From a candidate division WOR-1 bacterium RIFOXYB2_FULL_42_35 (GTDB lineage: Bacteria; Margulisbacteria; WOR-1; O2-12-FULL-45-9), in assembly GCA_001771545.1 (NCBI GenBank), contig MEUC01000022.1, positions 49,850 to 83,487 on the forward strand: a stretch of 33,638 nt of DNA. The letters run 5' to 3'. Positions 3 to 33,365 of the stretch are shown piece after piece. Position numbers and translations under genes: made by a program. A model generated the notes under the pieces. It was given only the letters and a program-made list of their open reading frames with translations, made no database searches and was not told where the DNA came from. The first letter of the stretch is position 1, and the number at the start of each line of letters is the position of its first letter.

Positions 3-3000
3 ACCGGAACAGATACGTTGGAAGTAAATTACACTAGCAAGGTTTTAGGTCAAGAAAAAATTACGGCAGAAACTGCCGTAACTATTATTCACGGAGACTT
101 TGCCAAGTTAAGGATTAATCCTGCCAGTGCTTCGATGTCGTCGGGAGATAAGCTGACGTTAACGAGTGAAGCGACAGATGCCTGGGATAACCCGATAGAT
201 ATTGGTACAGTCGGTCATAGTTGGACATTGGCTGGAGGTACTCCATTAACCAGCACCGATAGGGTTGTTACCTATGAGGCAGGGGCAACCGCTGGTCAGT
301 ACACGATTAGCTTAACAGGGAATCTAAATACAACGAGTGTGAGTACTACAGCAGCAGTGCAAGTTGATGCAGTGCAAAGTATCTCTATCCAAAGTTTGAA
401 TAGTAGTCTGGTTTATGGTACAGGCGATGAGTTTGATGTTCGGGCCGTGTATCAATATGCATCTCCAGGGAAGGTGCAAGCCGGGGTAACATTTGAGGTC
501 ACGAATGGGATAGGGACAGTTATTACAGAGGGAGCAAGTTCGTTTAAATTTAATCCCTTGAAGTCCGGGACAGGGAATGTAATCGCTTACTATGCCGGTA
601 AAGTTAGTATAGAAGCCTTAACTGTAACAGCGACAGTCACAGCGATAAGTATCGTTCCGTCAACAGCCACAATTAGGGCAGGAGAATTAACGACCTTTGA
701 AGCGACGTTATATTACGCCGATGGCACTTTTACCACAGCAGGCCGAACCCTCTGTGATTGGAAACTGCCGATGTCCCCGTTTATATCAGTAAGCAATGGA
801 CAAGTAACCTTAACTACAACTGGAACAGGAACAATTGAGGCTAGCTATAGTAGTAAGTTACTGGGTCAGGCCAAAGTAATTACCAGCACTATTTTTGTAG
901 TTGGGGTTGGGAACTTAAATAGTTTGAATATAATCCCTCAAAATCAAATAGCTCAAACAGGGGGGACAATTCAATTTACCATTGAGGCTTTTGATGTCTG
1001 GAATAATAAAATAGATACTAAGACTCTTAACCAGGATTGGAAAACTACCGGTACTAATGCAATTACATCGGTAGGGACATTTACTGCTGGATCCTTACCA
1101 GGAACCTATCAGATTACAGTTACTGCTGAGGCAGATGGTTATTCTGCTGGTAATAGTACCGGTATTACTGTTTATAGTCCTGTTTATAGTTTAAATTCCA
1201 TTGCAATTTTACCCCAAGCTAACAAAATTGATATTAATCATAAAACAACGACTTTTGAGGTTTGGGGCAGCTATGCTGTGATTGGCCAAAGGCTAATCAC
1301 CACAGAAGTTTCTTGGCAAGTTATTCCTGCAGAAGTTGGCACTATTGAAGCCTTGGCTGGGAAATTTACTTTTATTCCCAATAAAGCAGGGCAATGTACT
1401 GTCGAAGTTACGCATAAAGGGATTTTAAAAGATATTGCTACGGTTGATGTAACAATTGATTTGCTAGCAGTTAGTCTAGAAGCCAGTTCTACAACTCTGC
1501 GAATTGGTGAAAAGAGGAAGTTTGATTTAATTGCCTATTATAATGATCAGACCAGTAAAAATGTTAGCAACTCTAGTGATTGTAACTGGCAGATACTACC
1601 ATCTTGGTCAACTTTAGCGAGCATTACTTCAACCGGAGAAGTGCTGGCTAAAGCAGCTGGAACACCAGCGCCAATTGTTCAAGTCAGCTATTCTTATAAT
1701 GGTACTGGTATTGTAACTAAGACCGCTACTGCGATACTTAATATTCTTCCTCCGGCTACTTTAAGCTCAATAAATATTGTGCCGGCTTCGGCCAGTCTTA
1801 TTGCCGGGACAGCCAGGACTTTTAAAGTTGTGGCTAGTTATTCAGATCAATCAACGCAAGAGGTTGCCGCTGCTTGTCAGTGGAGTTTAGATCCTGCTCA
1901 TGTTGGGAAGATTGTTTCAGGTGAGGTTCTAGTGACAATTGTTGGAAATGGCAAGGCTACTGTGACAGCAACTTATGAATATAAGAGTAAAAGCACTACT
2001 GCAACTGCGGCACTACAAATAAGTCCGGCTGTGCTTAATTCAATAACAGTTACTTCAGCAGCTACATCTGTTGCAGTTGGTGGGCAAGTTCAATTTACAG
2101 CGGCAGGAAGAGACCTTTATGGCAACATTGTTAGTGTTCCTCCTAGCTGGAAAACATCAGGTGGCTCGATCAGCAGTAGTGGTTTGCTAACTGCTCCAGC
2201 AGTCAAGGGTTCGGTTTCTAAAATTAGAGTTGAAGCAAATTCAGGATCAATTGTTGGCACTAGAGAAGTTACCCTTTTAGCTGGAGACTTAACTACAATT
2301 ACTCTTTCTTCTAGTACTACTGAAGTAGCTGCCGGGAAAACACTAATTTTTACGGTTGCTGGTCAAGATAGTCTAGGTAATCCAGCGGCAGTTGATTCTA
2401 ACCAATGTCAATGGACTGTATCTGCGGGAAAGATATTGCCCAATGGCATTTTAATCGCTCCAATTAACCCAGGGCAAATAACTGTTACTGCCAGCTATGC
2501 TGCTGGCGTTTTTGCTAATCAGCTGATTACTGTTGTTCCGGATATTTTGAGTTCTACAGAAGTTACACCCCTTAATCCTATTGTTTTACCGGCGCAGCAA
2601 ATTAATTTTGTTGCTGGTGGTTATGATCAATATAGTAATTTGGTCACTTTGGAAAGTTTTACTTACACCGCCAGCAGTCAGGCCGGAACATATAATGTGA
2701 CTAGAAACCTAGTTGATAGTCGCAATAATCTTACTAAGATTGCTCAAACCAGCCTAACTGTGCAGCCTGGTACGCTTAAGACTATTATCGTTACTCCTGC
2801 CGTTGTTACTATCGAAGCTGGAGGCTCACAACAATTTAGTGCTGTTGGTTATGATCAATATAATAATAAAATCTCTGGATTGATTTTTACTTGTAGTTCA
2901 AGCCTGGGCAATAGTTCTCTGATCAAAACAACCGGTAAAACGCAGGCAGGGAATTATACTTTAACTGTTTCCAGCCTAGGAGTTAGCGCTCAGGCCATGA

Positions 3001-3917
3001 TAGTTGTCAAGCAAAAATTAAAAGAAATCTATTATCCGGCAACTGTCTATAGTCATAATAAAAAATCCAGCCAAGCTCATCTAGGGCTTGTTCCCCAGGC
3101 TGTTGATATTAATGATCAGCCCTATGATTTAACCGGCCAAAAAATCACCTACTTTGTGACAGGCCAGCAGTACGGTAATTCAATTGATGAGCAGGGCAAT
3201 TTTACCGGTGGGATTAGTGAGGGGGCTTATACTGTTACCGCTACGCTGACGGTGGGGACACAAACTTATACCGCTTCAGCAAATGTTTATGTCAATATTG
3301 ATTCTCCCAAGATTACGTTGACTATAGATGGCAAGGAGCTTAAGGCAGGGGACATTATTGGTCAGCAGCCTAAAATTAAAATCGCAATCTCTGACGGGAA
3401 CCTGATCAAAGAAATTAATGTTAGTTTTGATGGGGTTGAAGCTAGCGCTGCTACTCTCAAAGCTTCAGCGCTTGACCAGGCAGAGGTTATGGCTACTTAT
3501 ACAGCGGCTAATGACTTGACACCAGGCGAGCATACAATTCTTGTTGTGGCCAAAGATTCCCTTGGCAGTGTGAGTAGTGTAAGTATTAGTGGGCTAAAAG
3601 TTTATTCGGCTTCGGTAATAAGCGGAACCCCCATGAATTATCCTAATCCATTTAAGCCTTCCTCTGAACAGACCACCATAAATTATACTCTGACCAAGGA
3701 TTCTGATATCAGAATATATATTTATGATTTAGCCAGAAGGCTGGTTTATAGTCAGGCCTATACTGCTGGAGTTAATGGGGGCAAATTAGGTGAAAATGAA
3801 ATCACTTGGAATGGCAAAGATACATTTAGTGAAATTGTTGCCAACGGTGTTTATGTTTATCTAATCACCTCGGATGGTAAGGTTATTGGTTCCGGCGAAA
3901 TTAGCGTCTTTGAGTAA
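3..3917 (+). CDS. Exported Ig-repeat surface protein with FlgD/type IX-like C-terminal domain (5' end cut by window edge)
   Basis: The frame is open to the left edge, so the N-terminus and any signal peptide lie outside. About 1,300 residues are visible. Some eleven repeats of roughly 90-110 residues each open with a strand such as LRINPASASM, ISIVPSTATI or IIVTPAVVTI, followed by a Gly-rich turn and a line like FTAAGRDLYGN; this is the pattern of bacterial Ig-like (Big) domains. The last ~290 residues form a different module. It ends in a domain starting at NYPNPFKPSSEQTTINYTL, continuing through IYIYDLARRLVYS and NGVYVYLIT, which resembles FlgD Ig-like folds and type IX (Por) type-A sorting domains. 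The same module ends the protein at 13354-15177. The next gene is a PorV-like protein. Role inferred: a long cell-surface or secreted adhesin or stalk. Family assignment is solid at fold level; the exact function is unknown. Confidence 0.85.
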   Translation, partial: TGTDTLEVNYTSKVLGQEKITAETAVTIIHGDFAKLRINPASASMSSGDKLTLTSEATDAWDNPIDIGTVGHSWTLAGGTPLTSTDRVVTYEAGATAGQYTISLTGNLNTTSVSTTAAVQVDAVQSISIQSLNSSLVYGTGDEFDVRAVYQYASPGKVQAGVTFEVTNGIGTVITEGASSFKFNPLKSGTGNVIAYYAGKVSIEALTVTATVTAISIVPSTATIRAGELTTFEATLYYADGTFTTAGRTLCDWKLPMSPFISVSNGQVTLTTTGTGTIEASYSSKLLGQAKVITSTIFVVGVGNLNSLNIIPQNQIAQTGGTIQFTIEAFDVWNNKIDTKTLNQDWKTTGTNAITSVGTFTAGSLPGTYQITVTAEADGYSAGNSTGITVYSPVYSLNSIAILPQANKIDINHKTTTFEVWGSYAVIGQRLITTEVSWQVIPAEVGTIEALAGKFTFIPNKAGQCTVEVTHKGILKDIATVDVTIDLLAVSLEASSTTLRIGEKRKFDLIAYYNDQTSKNVSNSSDCNWQILPSWSTLASITSTGEVLAKAAGTPAPIVQVSYSYNGTGIVTKTATAILNILPPATLSSINIVPASASLIAGTARTFKVVASYSDQSTQEVAAACQWSLDPAHVGKIVSGEVLVTIVGNGKATVTATYEYKSKSTTATAALQISPAVLNSITVTSAATSVAVGGQVQFTAAGRDLYGNIVSVPPSWKTSGGSISSSGLLTAPAVKGSVSKIRVEANSGSIVGTREVTLLAGDLTTITLSSSTTEVAAGKTLIFTVAGQDSLGNPAAVDSNQCQWTVSAGKILPNGILIAPINPGQITVTASYAAGVFANQLITVVPDILSSTEVTPLNPIVLPAQQINFVAGGYDQYSNLVTLESFTYTASSQAGTYNVTRNLVDSRNNLTKIAQTSLTVQPGTLKTIIVTPAVVTIEAGGSQQFSAVGYDQYNNKISGLIFTCSSSLGNSSLIKTTGKTQAGNYTLTVSSLGVSAQAMIVVKQKLKEIYYPATVYSHNKKSSQAHLGLVPQAVDINDQPYDLTGQKITYFVTGQQYGNSIDEQGNFTGGISEGAYTVTATLTVGTQTYTASANVYVNIDSPKITLTIDGKELKAGDIIGQQPKIKIAISDGNLIKEINVSFDGVEASAATLKASALDQAEVMATYTAANDLTPGEHTILVVAKDSLGSVSSVSISGLKVYSASVISGTPMNYPNPFKPSSEQTTINYTLTKDSDIRIYIYDLARRLVYSQAYTAGVNGGKLGENEITWNGKDTFSEIVANGVYVYLITSDGKVIGSGEISVFE

Positions 3918-3960
3918 AACCTGGCAGTCCTGCGGTCTGTAGTTATGAATTTAGAATTCC

Positions 3961-3996
3961 CCATGCAAGTTTTTCTCCTCTCATTACGATATATAT
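3961..3996 (+). promoter_or_regulatory. Bipartite promoter-like element shared with the second porV-like gene
   Basis: CCATGCAAGTT (3961-3971), eleven unconserved bases, then ATTACGATATATAT (3983-3996). The same two blocks with the same 11-base gap occur at 15270-15305 ahead of the paralogous gene. Two conserved blocks around a free spacer are typical of a promoter. GCAAGTTT and TACGATAT loosely resemble sigma-28 boxes (TAAAGTTT / GCCGATAA), but that reading is speculative. Confidence 0.45.
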
Positions 3997-3999
3997 ATT

Positions 4000-4088
4000 G
4001 AAAGGGACCCAAAGCCATCTGCAACTGCCCCTGGCAGTAAAAACCAGGAGACGATGTGGATGGCCTGTTAAAACAGGCTATTTTTTTA
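4000..4088 (+). promoter_or_regulatory. Candidate attenuator or riboswitch leader of the porV-like gene
   Basis: Downstream of the promoter-like element the leader can form a 9-bp stem, GCCATCTGC (4014-4022) with GTGGATGGC (4056-4064). This encloses a perfect 6-bp hairpin, ACTGCC/GGCAGT (4024-4038). A competing pairing is CCTGG (4030-4034) with CCAGG (4044-4048). The outer stem shares bases 4063-4064 with the following terminator stem, so the two structures compete. The terminator ends 14 bases before the ATG, leaving no room for another promoter. The ligand or signal is unknown, and I could not match a known riboswitch class. Confidence 0.4.
4063..4087 (+). terminator. Intrinsic terminator-like hairpin just before the porV-like start codon
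   Basis: GCCTGTTAAAACAGGC followed by TA and seven T. The stem is 5-6 bp with a small loop. Its position between the leader stem and the Shine-Dalgarno site suggests regulated read-through, not a gene end. Confidence 0.55.
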
Positions 4089-4101
4089 AAAGAGGAGTAA
4101 G

Positions 4102-5193
4102 ATGGGGACAAGAAGATTTAAAATCTCAGGTTTCAACTTCCTGTACATTATTATAGTGGTTGTTATAACCCTATCAGTACTAGTAGCTATTTCCGCACCT
4201 GCCCAAGCTAAAGATTCTCTGGATTTACGTGTTGTTGGTATCGGAGCCAGATCATTGGGTATGGGTAAGGCTGGGGTAGCGCTGGCAGATGATTCTAATG
4301 CTGTGTTTATTAATCCCGCCGGTTTAGCCTATCAAAAGAATTGGTCTGCAACTTGTATGTCAACAAAACTGATGGAACGGGTTGACTATAAGCTTGTGGC
4401 CGGTACTTACCATACAGATTACGGCACTTTCGGGATTGGTTATATTGGGGCAACTACACCGGGTGGATATTTAACTACTAATAAGGCCAGCTTGAGTAGC
4501 GCGGTACCTATCGGCTATGGTTCCAGTCAAATTATCGTTTCTTACGCCAGAAGTTTAAATGAACTGATCAGTGGGACTTCTATTTTAGGCGATTTAAGCC
4601 TTGGTGTTAGTGCTAAAGTCCTGGCTAATAATTTCAGTGGTTACAGTGCTGCTGCTTCCGGTCAAAGTTGTGACTTTGCCTTATTATTTAAACCGAGAAA
4701 AAATATTTCCTTCGGTCTTAATCTGATGAACCTGGGCGGCAATGTTAATTGGGCTAATGGTTCCAGTGAAGACTTGGCCAGCAAGAGTAAGGTTGGGACA
4801 GTAATTAAATTGCTTGACGACAAGTTATTGCTGGCCGTTGATGCAGACCTGGCAATTATCGGCAACAGCCCACTGCTTATTCACGGAGGGCTGGAATGGA
4901 CCCCCTTAAGCCTCATTGTGCTTCGGGCGGGGTTGGACCAGTCTGCCCTGGGTAGCTCTGCTGTCACGAATTTAACCGGTGGGCTTGGCATCAAACTGGC
5001 AGGTTTTTCTTTTGACTATGCCTATCAGCAAGACAGTAAACTTTCCGGCAATTCCAGTCATTATTTTTCCTTGTCTTTCCAACCAACTTTTGTTGAGGAA
5101 ATTGCCGCTAAAGAAATTAAAAGCGAGCTTAAAGTTGCCGGCAACCAAACCAACTCAAACAATTCATTTGGAGTTTTAACTTATTATAAATAA
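4102..5193 (+). CDS. PorV-like outer-membrane beta-barrel protein (copy 1)
   Basis: 363 residues, ATG with GAGGAG at 4092-4097. A hydrophobic N-terminal segment (about residues 13-36) ends at AQAKD, a likely signal peptidase site. Directly after it comes VVGIGARSLGMGKAGVALAD followed by NAVFINPAGLA, the hallmark N-terminus of PorV/UPF0164-type outer-membrane proteins; the rest is alternating beta-strand sequence. In Bacteroidota, PorV binds the C-terminal sorting domains of type IX cargo and shuttles them to the sortase. Here it sits next to a protein with such a C-terminal domain, which supports a similar job. It is closely related to the protein at 15358-16476. Expression probably depends on read-through of the hairpin at 4063-4087. 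Family call good; the type IX role is inferred. Confidence 0.8.
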   Translation: MGTRRFKISGFNFLYIIIVVVITLSVLVAISAPAQAKDSLDLRVVGIGARSLGMGKAGVALADDSNAVFINPAGLAYQKNWSATCMSTKLMERVDYKLVAGTYHTDYGTFGIGYIGATTPGGYLTTNKASLSSAVPIGYGSSQIIVSYARSLNELISGTSILGDLSLGVSAKVLANNFSGYSAAASGQSCDFALLFKPRKNISFGLNLMNLGGNVNWANGSSEDLASKSKVGTVIKLLDDKLLLAVDADLAIIGNSPLLIHGGLEWTPLSLIVLRAGLDQSALGSSAVTNLTGGLGIKLAGFSFDYAYQQDSKLSGNSSHYFSLSFQPTFVEEIAAKEIKSELKVAGNQTNSNNSFGVLTYYK

Positions 5194-13353: not shown

Positions 13354-15177
13354 GTGAGGAATTTAAATAAAATAAAAAATATAGTTACGGTCACTTTAGG
13401 CCTGCTGTTGTTGTGTTCCACAACTGCCAGAGCGGAAACTTTCTTTGGTCGTGTTTCCGGTTCTCCCGACCTCAAGAGCCTCAATTTTGTCAGCTATGTT
13501 GATAATGACGACAGCTTTATTATTACCGATCAAATCACTAACGGCTATCAGCTGCTGCAAGGGGCTGGTTGGTGGATTATTGATACCGATAGTTTCAGAA
13601 AGGGGCTAACAGCTAAACGTTTTGATATTGATTTTTACAATACCACCAATAAAACTATACAATCAGCTACTCTTGACATCAAAGGACTGCCGGCAGTTTT
13701 AAAGGACATTGACCAGTTAACCACAGCAAGCTTGGGAGTGCCCAAATTAGATACTCCGGCAGTTGGAGACAGTAAGGTTGGCTTAAGCTGGGATGCCAGC
13801 GGCAGTGTCAGTGAGTATAAAGTTTATCGCTCAAGCAGTAACGACGGACGCTATGATCGAATTAGGGATAATTTAAGCTCAACCACGACCAGTTATACCG
13901 ATAGCGGCTTACAAAATGGGGTTGCCTACTATTATACAATTGTTGCAGTGGATAGTAATGGCAATAGGGTGCATTCTAATCTAATCAGCGCTACCCCGCA
14001 AATCCCCGTTGTTGTGCCGGTTGTGAAACTAGAATCTATCGAGCTCAGTCCGCAGAATATTACGGTAAAAGTTGGTGAGAATAAAAACTTCAAACTTAAA
14101 GCCAACTACTCCGATAGCAGCAACAGTTATATTGACAGCGGAGCAACCTGGCAGATCATCGATGCCAGTCCCAAAGATCTGGGGAGTATCAATAACGGGG
14201 TTTTAAAAACTGCTAAAATAGGGACCGGTAAAGTTACTGCTAGTTATGGCGGTAAGACAGCCACAGCATTGCTAACTGTTGTCTCTCCTATTAATAAAGT
14301 GGCTTTTAATTACAAGGCCTACATGGTTGATAAGCAGAGCAAAGGCAAGACAGTTAAGATTAGCCCGGAGATTCTTGATTCAGAAGGGTTGCAGGTAGAT
14401 GCCTCTAAGTATCAAGTTGCGTATAGTGTTACCGGCAAGGAAAATATTATTGATATTAATGGCAATCTCAAACCGGGCAATACAGATGGTCAATTCCTCC
14501 TGACCAGCACTGTCAATGTTGGTGGTAAGGATTATGTTGATACGGCGACAGTATATATTAATGTCAATGATCCGAAGATAACAACTAACATTAAGGAGGG
14601 GCAAACCATTAATCCCAAGCATCCCCTTAAGGTTGAGGCCAGCGATGGTAACGGAATTGCCAGCATTACAGTCAAGGCGGATGGTAAAGAGTTGGCTTCA
14701 AAAGCCGGTGCCTCTGCTTTGGCAGCTGCGTTGGGACAAGAGAAGGTGGTAGCCAGTTTTGTGCCGGATAAAGAGTTAACAGCCGGCTCTCATACAATAG
14801 TTATTGAGGTGAAAGATAGTTTGGGCGGTACGACTAGTGTTTCCTATGGCGGTCTACAAGTTTATGGTGTTGCTGCTGTGACAGGGACACCGATGAATTA
14901 TCCCAATCCCTTTAAGCCCAGTAGTCAGCTGACTACGATAAATTATACTTTGACCCAAGATACCAATGTGAAGTTCTATATATACGATCTTGCCAGACAG
15001 ACGATCTATTCGGCTGATTATGCCGGTGGGACAACCGGTGGTAGTTTGGGAGAAAACGAAATTACCTGGAATGGCCGTGATGCTGCCAACAATCTTGTTG
15101 CTAATGGTGTTTATGTTTACTTTATTACCTTAGATGGTAAGATCTTGGGTTCCGGAGAAATCAGCGTCTACGAGTAA
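13354..15177 (+). CDS. Exported Fn3/Ig protein with FlgD/type IX-like C-terminal domain
   Basis: 607 residues starting at GTG, with AGGAGG overlapping the giant gene's stop region (gap 12 bases), so it is co-transcribed with the giant. A signal peptide ends near TARAETFFG. A unique N-terminal domain follows (about 28-120), then an Fn3-like domain (about 130-220; SEYKVYRSSSNDGRYD, YYYTIVAVDSNGN), a Big-like domain (about 225-310; LESIELSPQNITVKVGENKN), and a ~290-residue C-terminal module. That module contains GTPMNYPNPFKPSSQLTTIN, IYDLARQTIYS and NGVYVYFITLDG, and is the same module as at the end of the protein at 3-3917. A terminator follows and then the second porV-like gene. It is likely cargo recognised through its C-terminus, perhaps displayed with the giant. 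Function inferred from architecture only. Confidence 0.85.
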   Translation: MRNLNKIKNIVTVTLGLLLLCSTTARAETFFGRVSGSPDLKSLNFVSYVDNDDSFIITDQITNGYQLLQGAGWWIIDTDSFRKGLTAKRFDIDFYNTTNKTIQSATLDIKGLPAVLKDIDQLTTASLGVPKLDTPAVGDSKVGLSWDASGSVSEYKVYRSSSNDGRYDRIRDNLSSTTTSYTDSGLQNGVAYYYTIVAVDSNGNRVHSNLISATPQIPVVVPVVKLESIELSPQNITVKVGENKNFKLKANYSDSSNSYIDSGATWQIIDASPKDLGSINNGVLKTAKIGTGKVTASYGGKTATALLTVVSPINKVAFNYKAYMVDKQSKGKTVKISPEILDSEGLQVDASKYQVAYSVTGKENIIDINGNLKPGNTDGQFLLTSTVNVGGKDYVDTATVYINVNDPKITTNIKEGQTINPKHPLKVEASDGNGIASITVKADGKELASKAGASALAAALGQEKVVASFVPDKELTAGSHTIVIEVKDSLGGTTSVSYGGLQVYGVAAVTGTPMNYPNPFKPSSQLTTINYTLTQDTNVKFYIYDLARQTIYSADYAGGTTGGSLGENEITWNGRDAANNLVANGVYVYFITLDGKILGSGEISVYE

Positions 15178-15202
15178 CTATATTCAAATTATCTCGACTA
15201 TA

Positions 15203-15235
15203 AAAGCAGAGCCCCCAGGGTTTTGCTTTACTTTT
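15203..15235 (+). terminator. Intrinsic terminator after the Fn3/Ig protein
   Basis: AAAGCAGAGCCC-CCA-GGGTTTTGCTTT forms a 12-bp stem with two G-T pairs, then ACTTTTT. Confidence 0.75.
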
Positions 15236-15269
15236 TGACACAACTATCTTTTAGCCCTTTTTATATTTT

Positions 15270-15305
15270 CCATGCAAGTTCTCCCTCATTTATTACGATA
15301 TATAT
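15270..15305 (+). promoter_or_regulatory. Bipartite promoter-like element, second copy
   Basis: CCATGCAAGTT (15270-15280) and ATTACGATATATAT (15292-15305), separated by 11 bases, match the element at 3961-3996 in sequence and spacing while the spacer differs. The ~50-base leader that follows has no terminator hairpin, unlike copy 1. It retains GCCATCTGCAA immediately before the ATG. Confidence 0.45.
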
Positions 15306-15357
15306 TATAGAAGGGGCAAGTGGGATAGAGGGCAGCGGAAGGAAACGCCATCTGCAA

Positions 15358-16476
15358 ATGGAAATAAGAAGATTAAAAATCTCGAATAGTAACTTCAAGC
15401 GCCTATACATTATTATAGGGCTAACCCTCTTTTTACTTGTGACTGTTTTCAACTTTCCAGCCTTAGCCGCAAAGTCTGCTTTAGATATTGGGGTGGTTGG
15501 TGTCGGGGCCAGAAACTTGGGGATGGGTAAATCTGGGGTTGCTATCGCTGATGATGCTAACGCTGTTTTTGTTAATCCCGCCGGTTTAGCTGCGCAAAAG
15601 AACTGGACTGCTACTTGTATGTCTACCAAGCTTATGGATCGAGTGGATTATAAGTTGGTTGGTGGCTCATATCGAACTCAATATGGTACTTTAGGGATTG
15701 GTTATATTACTTTAAGCACTCCCGCTGGTTATTTAACTACTAATAAGGCTAGTTTGACTGGAGCGGCTCCAATTAGTTATGGTTCACAGCAATTAGTTTT
15801 ATCCTATGGTAGAAGCTTAAATGAGATCATATCAGGAACTTCTATCCTTGGTGGGTTGGACTTTGGTATTAACTTTAAGCTTTTAGCAAATAATTTTGGT
15901 GGCTACGATGGTTCTGCTTCAGGTACAAGTGTTGATATTGGTTTTATTGCTAAACCAAGGGATAATTTAAGCTTGGGGGTTGCCTTCCAAAATATGTTTG
16001 GATCGGTGAACTGGAACAATGGCTCTAGTGAGGACTTGGAGAGCAAAACCAAGTTAGGGGTGGCTGGTAAATTTTGGGATAACAAATTAACAGTCAGTCT
16101 TGATACTGATATTGTTATTGGCAGATCAAGTCCGATGTTGATTCATACCGGGGCAGAGTGGACCCCCTTAAGTGTCATTGTGCTTAGGGCCGGACTTGAC
16201 CAGGATCCCCTGGCCAGTTCAGCTATTACGAATCTCACTGCTGGTCTAGGCATCAAATTAGCCGGTTTTTCTTTTGACTATGCTTATCATCAAGACAGCA
16301 AACTTTCCGGTAACTCCAGCCACTACATTTCAATATCTTTTGTTCCAACAATTAATCAAGATGTTTTTGCCAACAAACAGTCAGACAATATCTCTGTTAC
16401 TCAAACTATAACAACAGAACCTTTACGAACAAATGTGAAAGACCAGGACTTTGGGATACTGAGCTATTACAAATAG
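15358..16476 (+). CDS. PorV-like outer-membrane beta-barrel protein (copy 2)
   Basis: 372 residues from the ATG at 15358. The frame is open further upstream, but this start aligns with copy 1 (MEIRRLKISN versus MGTRRFKISG) and lies after the terminator and promoter-like element. GGAAGG at 15337-15342 is a rather distant ribosome-binding site. A hydrophobic signal segment ends near LAAKSA; then come VVGVGARNLGMGKSGVAIAD and NAVFVNPAGLA, the PorV/UPF0164 signature. Identity with copy 1 is high along the whole length (for example FSFDYAYHQDSKLSGNSSHY), so this is a recent duplication or a tandem-cassette paralogue. The likely role is outer-membrane handling of the sorting-domain proteins encoded just upstream. 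Confidence 0.8.
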   Translation: MEIRRLKISNSNFKRLYIIIGLTLFLLVTVFNFPALAAKSALDIGVVGVGARNLGMGKSGVAIADDANAVFVNPAGLAAQKNWTATCMSTKLMDRVDYKLVGGSYRTQYGTLGIGYITLSTPAGYLTTNKASLTGAAPISYGSQQLVLSYGRSLNEIISGTSILGGLDFGINFKLLANNFGGYDGSASGTSVDIGFIAKPRDNLSLGVAFQNMFGSVNWNNGSSEDLESKTKLGVAGKFWDNKLTVSLDTDIVIGRSSPMLIHTGAEWTPLSVIVLRAGLDQDPLASSAITNLTAGLGIKLAGFSFDYAYHQDSKLSGNSSHYISISFVPTINQDVFANKQSDNISVTQTITTEPLRTNVKDQDFGILSYYK

Positions 16477-27713: not shown

Positions 27714-27748
27714 AAAAGCACCCCAAGAAATCATTCTTGGGGTGTTTT
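27712..27748. terminator. Bidirectional terminator between truB and the Cys-repeat peptide gene
   Basis: CACCCCAAGAA-ATCA-TTCTTGGGGTG is a perfect 11-bp stem with TTTT on the + side and AAAAAA on the other, so it serves both convergent genes. Confidence 0.9.
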
Positions 27749-27780: not shown

Positions 27781-28026
27781 TTATGAGGTGGTAGTCCCGT
27801 TTGTAATGCAATTAAAAGCCGATCCCCCGACAGTTATACAATCTCCAGTAGCAGTGTTTCCATATGTTGCGCAGTCAGGGTTTGCCGAGGAACCTTGAGA
27901 GGTACATTCAGGCTCAGCTGAAGCCCCATTACTTACACACGCCTCTCCTACGGCAGGAGCTGCGACTAAACCAAGAAGCTCTGGTCTTTTGTACTTAATT
28001 GTGACGTCTTTTTGTTCTTTTTTCAT
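27781..28026 (-). CDS. Cys-repeat peptide, candidate RiPP precursor
   Basis: 81 residues from the ATG at 28026, chosen for AGGAGG 8 bases upstream. The first ~27 residues are leader-like and contain TIKYKRPELLGL, resembling the Y-x-x-P-x-L motif of leaders read by RRE domains. After EACV come five near-identical units with Cys at each start: C-x3-G-x-(S/T)-(A/T), spaced 11, 11, 11 and 10 residues, the later positions being Pro/Gly plus Asp/Glu/Asn before the next Cys. There is no signal peptide and no membrane segment. This fits a ribosomally made, post-translationally modified peptide (for example thioether- or epimerase-type radical SAM substrates). No maturase, RRE protein, protease or transporter is in the window, so the class is unproven. 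The gene is monocistronic, convergent with truB and divergent from the MNT gene. Confidence 0.7.
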   Translation of the reverse strand: MKKEQKDVTIKYKRPELLGLVAAPAVGEACVSNGASAEPECTSQGSSANPDCATYGNTATGDCITVGGSAFNCITNGTTTS

Positions 28027-28070
28027 CTTTTCATCCTCCTTTTTTATTCTAGACTCTATAGACTGTTTTA

Positions 28071-28127: not shown

Positions 28128-28595
28128 ATGACAGAAATTTCTAAAGAAAATTTATTAAACCAAATCAAGGTTTTTTTTGAGTTAAAAGCTAATCAATACG
28201 GGATTGCCTTGGCTTTTCTTTACGGTTCCTGGGCCAGGGGAATTCCCAGACCAGATTCAGATGTTGATCTGGCTGTTGTTTTTTCCCGTAAAACAAAAAC
28301 ACTTTCTAATGAGCAAATTTTTGACGCAATCGGTGCGCTTACCATTGATCTGACCAGAACCATTAAAAAAGAAGTTAATATTATCCCGATCCTGGCTGAT
28401 TTCAAAAAACCAATGTTGTATTATAACGCAATTGTTTTGGGGCAGCCGGTTTACATAGAAAGCACTGATGACTATGCCCGCTTTTTTGTGGCAGCTATTT
28501 TTCAGATGGAGGATTTTAGTATTTTTGGCACAAAGTGGCAATTGCAAGCCGCGGCCAAAAATCTTGAAGGAATAAAAAAACATGACCGAATTTAA
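28128..28595 (+). CDS. MNT-type nucleotidyltransferase, antitoxin of a MntA/HepT-like pair
   Basis: 155 residues. The minimal nucleotidyltransferase signature GSX10DXD is present (Gly33-Ser34 ... Asp45-Val-Asp47 in LYGSWARGIPRPDSDVDLAV). MntA antitoxins use this fold to AMPylate and so silence the HepT toxin. At the expected third carboxylate position the sequence reads EVNII, with Asn84 where Asp/Glu is usual, so catalytic activity is uncertain. It overlaps the HepT-like gene by 14 bases. Probably expressed from a leaderless promoter. A second such pair is at 32561-33365. Confidence 0.85.
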   Translation: MTEISKENLLNQIKVFFELKANQYGIALAFLYGSWARGIPRPDSDVDLAVVFSRKTKTLSNEQIFDAIGALTIDLTRTIKKEVNIIPILADFKKPMLYYNAIVLGQPVYIESTDDYARFFVAAIFQMEDFSIFGTKWQLQAAAKNLEGIKKHDRI

Positions 28596-29007
28596 GTATG
28601 CTAAGGGACGGATTAATGAGTCGGTTCAATTTATTTCCAGGGAAATGAAGGAATTTGACCAGGAATACGCTGCAACAACGTGGGAAGAATATCAAAACGA
28701 CCTCAAGCAGCAAAAGTTGATTGATCGGACAGTGGAAAACATTTTAACCGCCTTTATTGAAATTTGCGGCACAATTATTGCTGAAAAAGGTCTGGCGGCC
28801 GAAAACTACAGTGAAGTCTTAAAAGAAGCCGCGAAAATATTTGGGCTTGGTTTAGACAAGCAAGAGGCGCTGGCCAAGCTGGCCGCGCAGCGTAATCGTT
28901 TGGCGCATCGCTATCTGGATTTTAAATGGCAGGCGATTAAGCTTTATATGGCGGAACAAGAAACCATTAAACTTGTTTTAAACGTTATATTAAAAGACGC
29001 AAATTGA
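28582..29007 (+). CDS. HepT-like HEPN-domain toxin (DUF86 family)
   Basis: 141 residues, all helical. It has the HEPN catalytic motif RX4HXY: Arg104, His109 and Tyr111 in RNRLAHRY. HepT proteins are RNases (tRNA or mRNA cleavage has been reported) whose motif Tyr is AMPylated by the partner MntA. The start lies inside the MNT gene, the standard order and overlap for this module. ligA starts 21 bases after the stop with no recognisable promoter, so toxin and ligase probably share a transcript. The toxin call rests on motif plus context. Confidence 0.82.
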   Translation: MTEFKYAKGRINESVQFISREMKEFDQEYAATTWEEYQNDLKQQKLIDRTVENILTAFIEICGTIIAEKGLAAENYSEVLKEAAKIFGLGLDKQEALAKLAAQRNRLAHRYLDFKWQAIKLYMAEQETIKLVLNVILKDAN

Positions 29008-32560: not shown

Positions 32561-32980
32561 TTAGAGTAAATCCGCTGTTTTTTTAATTACTAGTTTGACA
32601 GTTTCTTGATGTTTAACAATAAAATCCTTAATCTTTTCAAACTTAATCTCCATATATTCATGAGCCAAGATATTTCTTAATTTTGACACCTGTACCAAAC
32701 TGCTTTTGTTTTGGTCGCTTAATTTTAAAACCCGCGCTATCTCTTCCATTATTCCGGCATAGCTATCGGGCATTTCAATGTTCTTTTCAGAGATGATGAT
32801 TTTGGCAAGATCAATTACTGCGTTGGTAATGTTTTCGATCATGCGGTCAACCAGGCGGCGAAGGTTTTTGTCGTCACAGTATTGTTTATAATTAAGATCA
32901 TTATAAGCAGTTAAGTCTTTTATTTCTGCTTGGGCAAAATCAAAAATTTGCATTAGCCTGATCCGATTACTACTGTGCAT
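32561..32980 (-). CDS. HepT-like HEPN-domain toxin, second copy
   Basis: 139 residues from the ATG at 32980, chosen for AGGAGG seven bases upstream (the frame opens two codons earlier at a TTG). The RX4HXY motif is intact (RNILAHEY; Arg102, His107, Tyr109). The overall helical pattern aligns with the HepT-like protein at 28582-29007, including LVDRMIENI versus LIDRTVENI, so the two are paralogues. It overlaps its MNT partner by 11 bases and is followed after three bases by pgi. Confidence 0.82.
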   Translation of the reverse strand: MHSSNRIRLMQIFDFAQAEIKDLTAYNDLNYKQYCDDKNLRRLVDRMIENITNAVIDLAKIIISEKNIEMPDSYAGIMEEIARVLKLSDQNKSSLVQVSKLRNILAHEYMEIKFEKIKDFIVKHQETVKLVIKKTADLL

Positions 32981-33365
32981 TGGCAAGCCTCCTTTTCATG
33001 GCCCAGATATCTTCCAAATCATTATTTAAATCCATGGCGGCAGAAGAAACTGAGAGCATATATTTGGTATAAAGGTTCCTGTCCCTGATAATTAAGGGGA
33101 TGCCCCTTATGGCTGACCAGGCAATTGCCTCTTTAGCGTCGTTTAAGACTAACAATTCCACATCTTTTTTAAGCAATGAAATCAGCTCATCCCAGATGGA
33201 GTTAAGTTCTTTTTTGGTGAATCCGTTTTCCAGGTATATTGCAATGTCGACATCAGAGTCAAAGAGAGGGGTTTTTCTGGCATAGGAACCGTATAAAAAA
33301 GCCATTTTGACCTTTGTTTGGCTAGAAAAATAATTAACCAGTTTTTCTTTAAGATTGTCAGCCAT
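32970..33365 (-). CDS. MNT-type nucleotidyltransferase, antitoxin, second copy
   Basis: 131 residues. GSX10DXD is intact (Gly26-Ser27 ... Asp38-Val-Asp40 in LYGSYARKTPLFDSDVDIAI). Here the third acidic position is Glu70 (DVELLVL), so the catalytic set looks more complete than in the first copy. It is predicted to AMPylate the HepT-like partner encoded next. An extended -10 box lies 7 bases upstream with no ribosome-binding site. Confidence 0.85.
   Translation of the reverse strand: MADNLKEKLVNYFSSQTKVKMAFLYGSYARKTPLFDSDVDIAIYLENGFTKKELNSIWDELISLLKKDVELLVLNDAKEAIAWSAIRGIPLIIRDRNLYTKYMLSVSSAAMDLNNDLEDIWAMKRRLANAQ

Follow-up and report, generated by a model that had tools for sequence, protein, structure and literature searches.

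The window, meaning the whole stretch of 33,638 nucleotides that was analysed, belongs to contig C22 of a WOR-1 bacterium (genome G000), whose assembly is fragmented into 51 contigs. On its minus strand, positions 28026..27781 translate as a single open reading frame of 81 amino acids, while the plus strand is non-coding there. The features of this candidate precursor gene are listed below.

27719..27744, minus strand: terminator-like hairpin of 11 bp with a T-run (read on the gene's strand), downstream of the candidate precursor gene, between it and a convergent truB-like gene
27781..28026, minus strand: candidate precursor gene, 81 amino acids plus stop, MKKEQKDVTIKYKRPELLGLVAAPAVGEACVSNGASAEPECTSQGSSANPDCATYGNTATGDCITVGGSAFNCITNGTTTS (translation; homologues in other genomes)
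27784..27810, minus strand: core unit 5, CITNGTTTS (translation)
27811..27840, minus strand: core unit 4, CITVGGSAFN (translation)
27841..27873, minus strand: core unit 3, CATYGNTATGD (translation)
27874..27906, minus strand: core unit 2, CTSQGSSANPD (translation)
27907..27939, minus strand: core unit 1, CVSNGASAEPE (translation)
27940..28026, minus strand: inferred leader, residues 1-29 (in alignments the conserved part stops just before the first core Cys; cleavage site approximate)
27976..27993, minus strand: leader motif YKRPEL (Y-x-x-P-x-L), putative binding site of the RRE protein ScmD (family conservation; lasso analogy)
28035..28040, minus strand: ribosome-binding site AGGAGG, with the ATG 8 nt further on (direct sequence reading)

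The truB-like gene converges on the candidate precursor gene, and at the opposite flank a nucleotidyltransferase/HEPN pair is oriented divergently. The candidate precursor gene lies approximately 5.6 kb from the end of its contig. No promoter-like site was found upstream of it. A sequence-only reading of this DNA had described a strong ribosome-binding site and the lack of an adjacent modifying enzyme, and both descriptions hold: AGGAGG precedes the ATG by 8 nt, and the CX3CX2C motif of radical SAM enzymes is absent from all window ORFs of at least 100 amino acids, so that no modifying enzyme adjoins the gene.

Elsewhere in the window, two pairs of nucleotidyltransferase (MNT-like) and HEPN-like genes, named by their appearance, occupy positions 28128-29007 (plus strand) and 32561-33365 (minus strand); they may represent modules resembling typical toxin-antitoxin systems. 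Two duplicated modules were recognised by eye at 18-5193 and 13354-16476, in which a large repeat protein with a sorting-type tail at its end, NPFKPSS...TINYTL, is paired with a PorV-like membrane protein.

The peptide and its family

The 81-residue peptide begins with a basic segment, followed by YKRPEL, a hydrophobic stretch and five core units. Its core cysteines are residues 30, 41, 52, 63 and 73, with glycine at position +4 of each. The five C-x3-G-x-(S/T)-(A/T) units reported in the sequence-only reading are thus present, while the 11-residue period claimed for them applies to the first three spacings and gives way to 10 at the last. The pattern is far from chance, as not one of 1,000,000 core shuffles combined Gly +4 at five cysteines with the 10-11 spacing, and the two features taken singly arose at rates of 6e-6 and 5.4e-5, respectively. 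In an AlphaFold2 (AF2) model based on 21 homologues, the leader is predicted with confidence (pLDDT 75-89), without helix or strand, and the core is unordered (pLDDT 44-49), with no solenoid. Such a core would be weak evidence for a substrate rather than a folded repeat protein.

Neither Pfam nor NCBIfam models match the window peptide, and PHROGs gave nothing better than an E value of 0.02. A single-sequence scan of the genome contigs revealed no relative, since patterns that are short and degenerate do not work for this precursor family. A tblastn search over 57 relatives uncovered many copies in three genomes, and the loci read afterwards contain small ORFs, often in tandem pairs, that have in common a YxxPxL leader and at least three Cys units in varying number. 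Across the family, members possess from 2 to 20 cysteines and glycine stands at +3 or +4 from the cysteine in 223 of 225 core units, most commonly in the form C-x2/3-G-x-S-A. The leader tyrosine is placed about 18 residues ahead of the first core cysteine in most members. In the first family collection the Y/P invariance arises by construction, since the regular expression used required Y/F..P/T. A held-out set was formed from 15 profile-search matches in genomes outside profile building; YxxP occurs in all 15 leaders, and glycine follows at +3/+4 after 99 of 99 core cysteines (36% expected from composition), in a search whose profile itself favours such features. The sequence-only reading had proposed testing whether homologues keep the leader motif while varying in repeat number, and this is what the family does, with the Cys/Gly register also retained.

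Two young paralogue pairs show dN/dS of about 0.4, with every cysteine kept. Two genomes, G002 and G029, each encode approximately 17 or more precursors (lower bounds, as only part of the candidates was scored), scattered over many contigs, together with a single ScmF match each. A third precursor-like ORF of the WOR-1 genome is situated at the start of C22, the window's own contig. In G152 (L227, contig C26, 2990-3733), a single, very long ORF of the family contains about 20 Cys units and directly follows ScmE-like and ScmF-like genes. Certain candidates were discarded: the tblastn match on contig C10 of the WOR-1 genome (L002) is not a gene of this kind, and weak matches in G053 and G013 disappeared in the profile search.

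SynChlorMet enzymes and their linkage to the precursors

The genome that carries the window also encodes a SynChlorMet (SCM) enzyme set, scoring well above the curated NCBIfam cut-offs for ScmC, ScmD, ScmE and ScmF (TIGR04249, 04248, 04250 and 04251). Contig C12 contains ScmD (125 bits, cut-off 100), ScmE (565, cut-off 400) and ScmF (578, cut-off 400), and contig C35 contains ScmC (272, cut-off 125), where a second precursor adjoins ScmC, an S26 peptidase and an NTP_transf_5 gene. A search for radical SAM/SPASM and RRE genes in the same genome, suggested in the sequence-only reading, thus led to a RiPP cassette with both; YcaO and LanC-like proteins gave no match in G000 (PF02624, PF05147). 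ScmF is about 75 bp from the end of C12, and the precursor gene is also near a contig end.

ScmE matches both Radical_SAM and SPASM models (37.4 bits, cut-off 21.5), and the SPASM match of ScmF, at 20.2 bits, is slightly below the cut-off. The radical-SAM cysteines and the invariant SPASM-type cysteines are kept in both enzymes. Their nearest solved relatives include SkfB and PqqE and, for ScmF, also cytosylglucuronate decarboxylase. ScmD is a PqqD/RRE protein with a weak match to lasso RRE models. ScmC bears a GxTGKST P-loop, and its AF2 model (pLDDT 84) matches the PEPCK and HPr kinase/phosphatase folds (Foldseek probability 1.00, with low TM-scores).

The order PqqD, radical SAM, radical SAM recurs in G000, G002, G005, G006, G019 and G029, and sibling precursors sit within the SCM cassettes of relatives. 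Precursors adjoin Scm genes in Aminicenantes (L110, three copies), Desulfobacteraceae (L111), Omnitrophota (L112) and a deltaproteobacterium (L113, three copies); in Chloroflexi (L117) a precursor is found beside more distant Scm-like genes, and others lie within the cassettes of further distant genomes. The tree of ScmE is weakly supported and neither proves nor excludes transfer.

Co-occurrence was assessed in 383 genomes, with thresholds of E <= 1e-60 for ScmF and E <= 0.01 for the precursor profile. ScmF is present in 18 genomes and the precursor profile in 14, all 14 of them among the 18 (Fisher p = 2e-22). After removal of the seven training genomes, the precursor is found in 7 of 11 ScmF genomes and in 0 of 365 others (p = 1.7e-12). 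Three of the four ScmF genomes without a profile match (G118, G192 and G260) have weaker precursor-like ORFs beside the cassette. SPASM enzymes in general occur in 40 of the 57 relatives, and the precursor link is therefore specific to SCM rather than to radical SAM enzymes at large. In the 25 kb that were read of the cassette contig of G029, no precursor was seen, which makes action in trans the rule in that genome. The sequence-only reading had implied a maturase acting in trans, a proposal supported by the location of ScmD, ScmE and ScmF on another contig and by the restriction of the family to ScmF genomes.

Taken together, the window gene is very probably an orphan radical-SAM RiPP precursor, matured in trans by the SynChlorMet enzymes of its own genome. 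As the gene lies away from the cassette, its putative pairing with SCM is drawn from leader similarity and co-occurrence. Maturation by a different PqqD/radical-SAM cassette, on contig C16 of the same genome, or by another SPASM enzyme, is improbable. The genome does hold two PqqD genes and six SPASM matches, and at the C16 locus (L102) a PqqD gene is accompanied by three radical-SAM ORFs and one S26-like ORF; against this, no such precursor occurs in G024, which has a set of the C16 type, the SCM PqqD is the only one in the precursor-bearing genomes G002, G005 and G006, and precursors adjoin ScmD/E/F in many taxa. This second RiPP-like set spans approximately 6784-17103 of C16 and is likewise found in G024 (L103) and G029 (L100/L101).

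The chance that the peptide is an unmodified structural or metal-binding Cys-repeat protein, in the manner of a solenoid or metallothionein, is small. Repeat solenoids with cysteines exist, and the regular period and the glycines would suit one; however, the family is confined perfectly to ScmF-bearing genomes, its conserved YxxPxL leader is of the RRE-bound type, the modelled core lacks order, and no Pfam or NCBIfam family accounts for it. It is also very doubtful that the gene is a silent or decaying paralogue, the relic of a former precursor. Its solitary position without a recognisable promoter upstream, and the extreme copy number in some relatives, which suggests birth and death, would be in line with decay, but the ORF is intact, the ribosome-binding site is strong, a terminator is present, all Cys and Gly residues are in register, and other family pairs are under purifying selection.

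Proposed maturation and comparison with known systems

From family membership, genomic linkage, co-occurrence and the enzyme families, we infer all the biochemical steps of the following scheme. ScmD, a stand-alone PqqD-type RRE, would bind the YKRPEL leader and hand the peptide to ScmE and ScmF, the radical SAM/SPASM enzymes predicted to act on the C-x3-G-x-(S/T)-A repeats. In the most likely modification, each cysteine sulfur would form a thioether with a carbon atom in a residue close by, with a change of -2 Da per link; such S-C crosslinks from cysteine are a best guess, made by analogy. ScmC, a P-loop protein of the HPr-kinase/PEPCK fold, and the NTP_transf_5 protein may phosphorylate or otherwise decorate the Ser/Thr of the units. 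Kinase and nucleotidyltransferase genes are included in some lasso clusters and decorate some lasso peptides (PMC8498205), so that phosphorylation or sugar addition on these residues is possible. The S26 peptidase would then remove the leader, and an ABC exporter would secrete the product. In expanded genomes, a single enzyme set could serve many dispersed precursors.

A known counterpart is ScmA (TIGR04252), the named precursor of the SynChlorMet system. Siblings of the window peptide match this model below threshold (best score 28.2 bits, cut-off 35), with alignment from the YxxP tyrosine onward, the window peptide does not match it, and none of the 18 ScmF genomes reaches the cut-off of 35 bits. 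The genome encodes ScmC, D, E and F, on C12 and C35, as expected for an ScmA-type precursor, but the window gene lies outside the cassette, whereas siblings elsewhere lie inside. Unlike ScmA, the window peptide is longer, with five units, and belongs to a family whose members have 2-20 cysteines and which reaches about 17 or more copies in some genomes. It is not classed here as ScmA proper, but would work like it, within a broader family that appears to include ScmA. As a short ORF with a conserved leader and a variable core, tied to a modifying enzyme set, it has the general attributes of a RiPP precursor. The evidence supports a diverged orphan precursor of the SynChlorMet cassette, a kind known by name only. 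The orphan precursor of the sequence-only reading is therefore supported, and a new RiPP class is not called for; that reading did not recognise the exact repeat among named Cys-repeat families, but family members are partly recognised by TIGR04252. We know of no described SynChlorMet product. A search of non-subscription literature by name and accession found no paper, and the RRE-Finder paper makes no mention of SCM.

The leader resembles those of lasso peptides, whose recognition by the RRE depends on Tyr -17, Pro -14 and Leu -12 at the same spacing (PMC10368454). The YxxPxL motif, its similar distance to the core and a stand-alone PqqD-type RRE are common to both systems; in contrast, the SCM core consists of Cys-Gly repeats, the maturases are radical SAM/SPASM enzymes, and G000 is without a lasso B2-type domain. 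A lasso precursor, with the leader feeding a lasso cyclase, is hardly credible, since the likeness of the leader, the kinase-like and nucleotidyltransferase genes and a PF13471 peptidase adjoining the PqqD gene in G029 are outweighed by a core of at least five Cys units, by the radical SAM/SPASM cassette and by the lack of PF13471 matches in G000, G002, G006, G019 and G030.

Sactipeptides (ruminococcin C, thuricin CD) and ranthipeptides (PapB, freyrasin) also combine a Cys-rich core with SPASM maturases, a maturase type present here, with the slightly sub-threshold ScmF score already given. For ruminococcin C and thuricin CD, two radical SAM enzymes per pathway are reported. The SCM unit differs, being C-x2/3-G-x-S-A and not Cys/Asp pairs, ScmE and ScmF are separate equivalogs, and the crosslink here is putative; against the NCBIfam model of the PapB maturase, ScmE reaches 88.6 and ScmF 57.6 bits, far from the cut-off of 340. 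In organisation, the closest parallel concerns the prochlorosins, for which one enzyme set (ProcM), many dispersed precursors, a kept leader and a variable core are described (PMC10783134); those peptides, however, have lanthionine chemistry and Nif11 leaders, and the genomes considered here are without a LanC-like protein.

A wider and tentative proposal, with somewhat less than an even chance of being correct, is that SynChlorMet constitutes a combinatorial RiPP system, in which an RRE and two radical SAM/SPASM enzymes would act in trans on scattered, diversifying C-x2/3-G-x-S-A repeat peptides, of which some bacteria encode about 17 or more. These enzymes would install a novel repeat-wise Cys crosslink, possibly with kinase/nucleotidyltransferase decoration. 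With radical SAM enzymes acting in trans, the system may parallel the prochlorosins, in phyla that are mostly uncultured. The findings offer a substrate rule for SynChlorMet enzymes, namely a Y-x-x-P-x-L leader followed by C-x2/3-G-x-S-A units, and indicate that substrates commonly lie at a distance from the enzymes and escape the present model (TIGR04252). They also point out genomes in which a single enzyme set is paired with about 17 or more substrates. The chemistry thus becomes directly testable in E. coli.

Two further observations concern relatives. In G029 (L100, contig C85, 24601-24816), a lasso-B2-type transglutaminase-like peptidase domain (PF13471) immediately precedes the PqqD gene of the SCM set, a hint that lasso and SCM systems may have exchanged leader peptidases. 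In G019 (L105, contig C49, 5527-8579), tandem small ORFs with another conserved start (FEITKVKLNPEQAVLSCC...) are found beside PqqD and radical-SAM genes, and they represent another candidate family of RiPP precursors.
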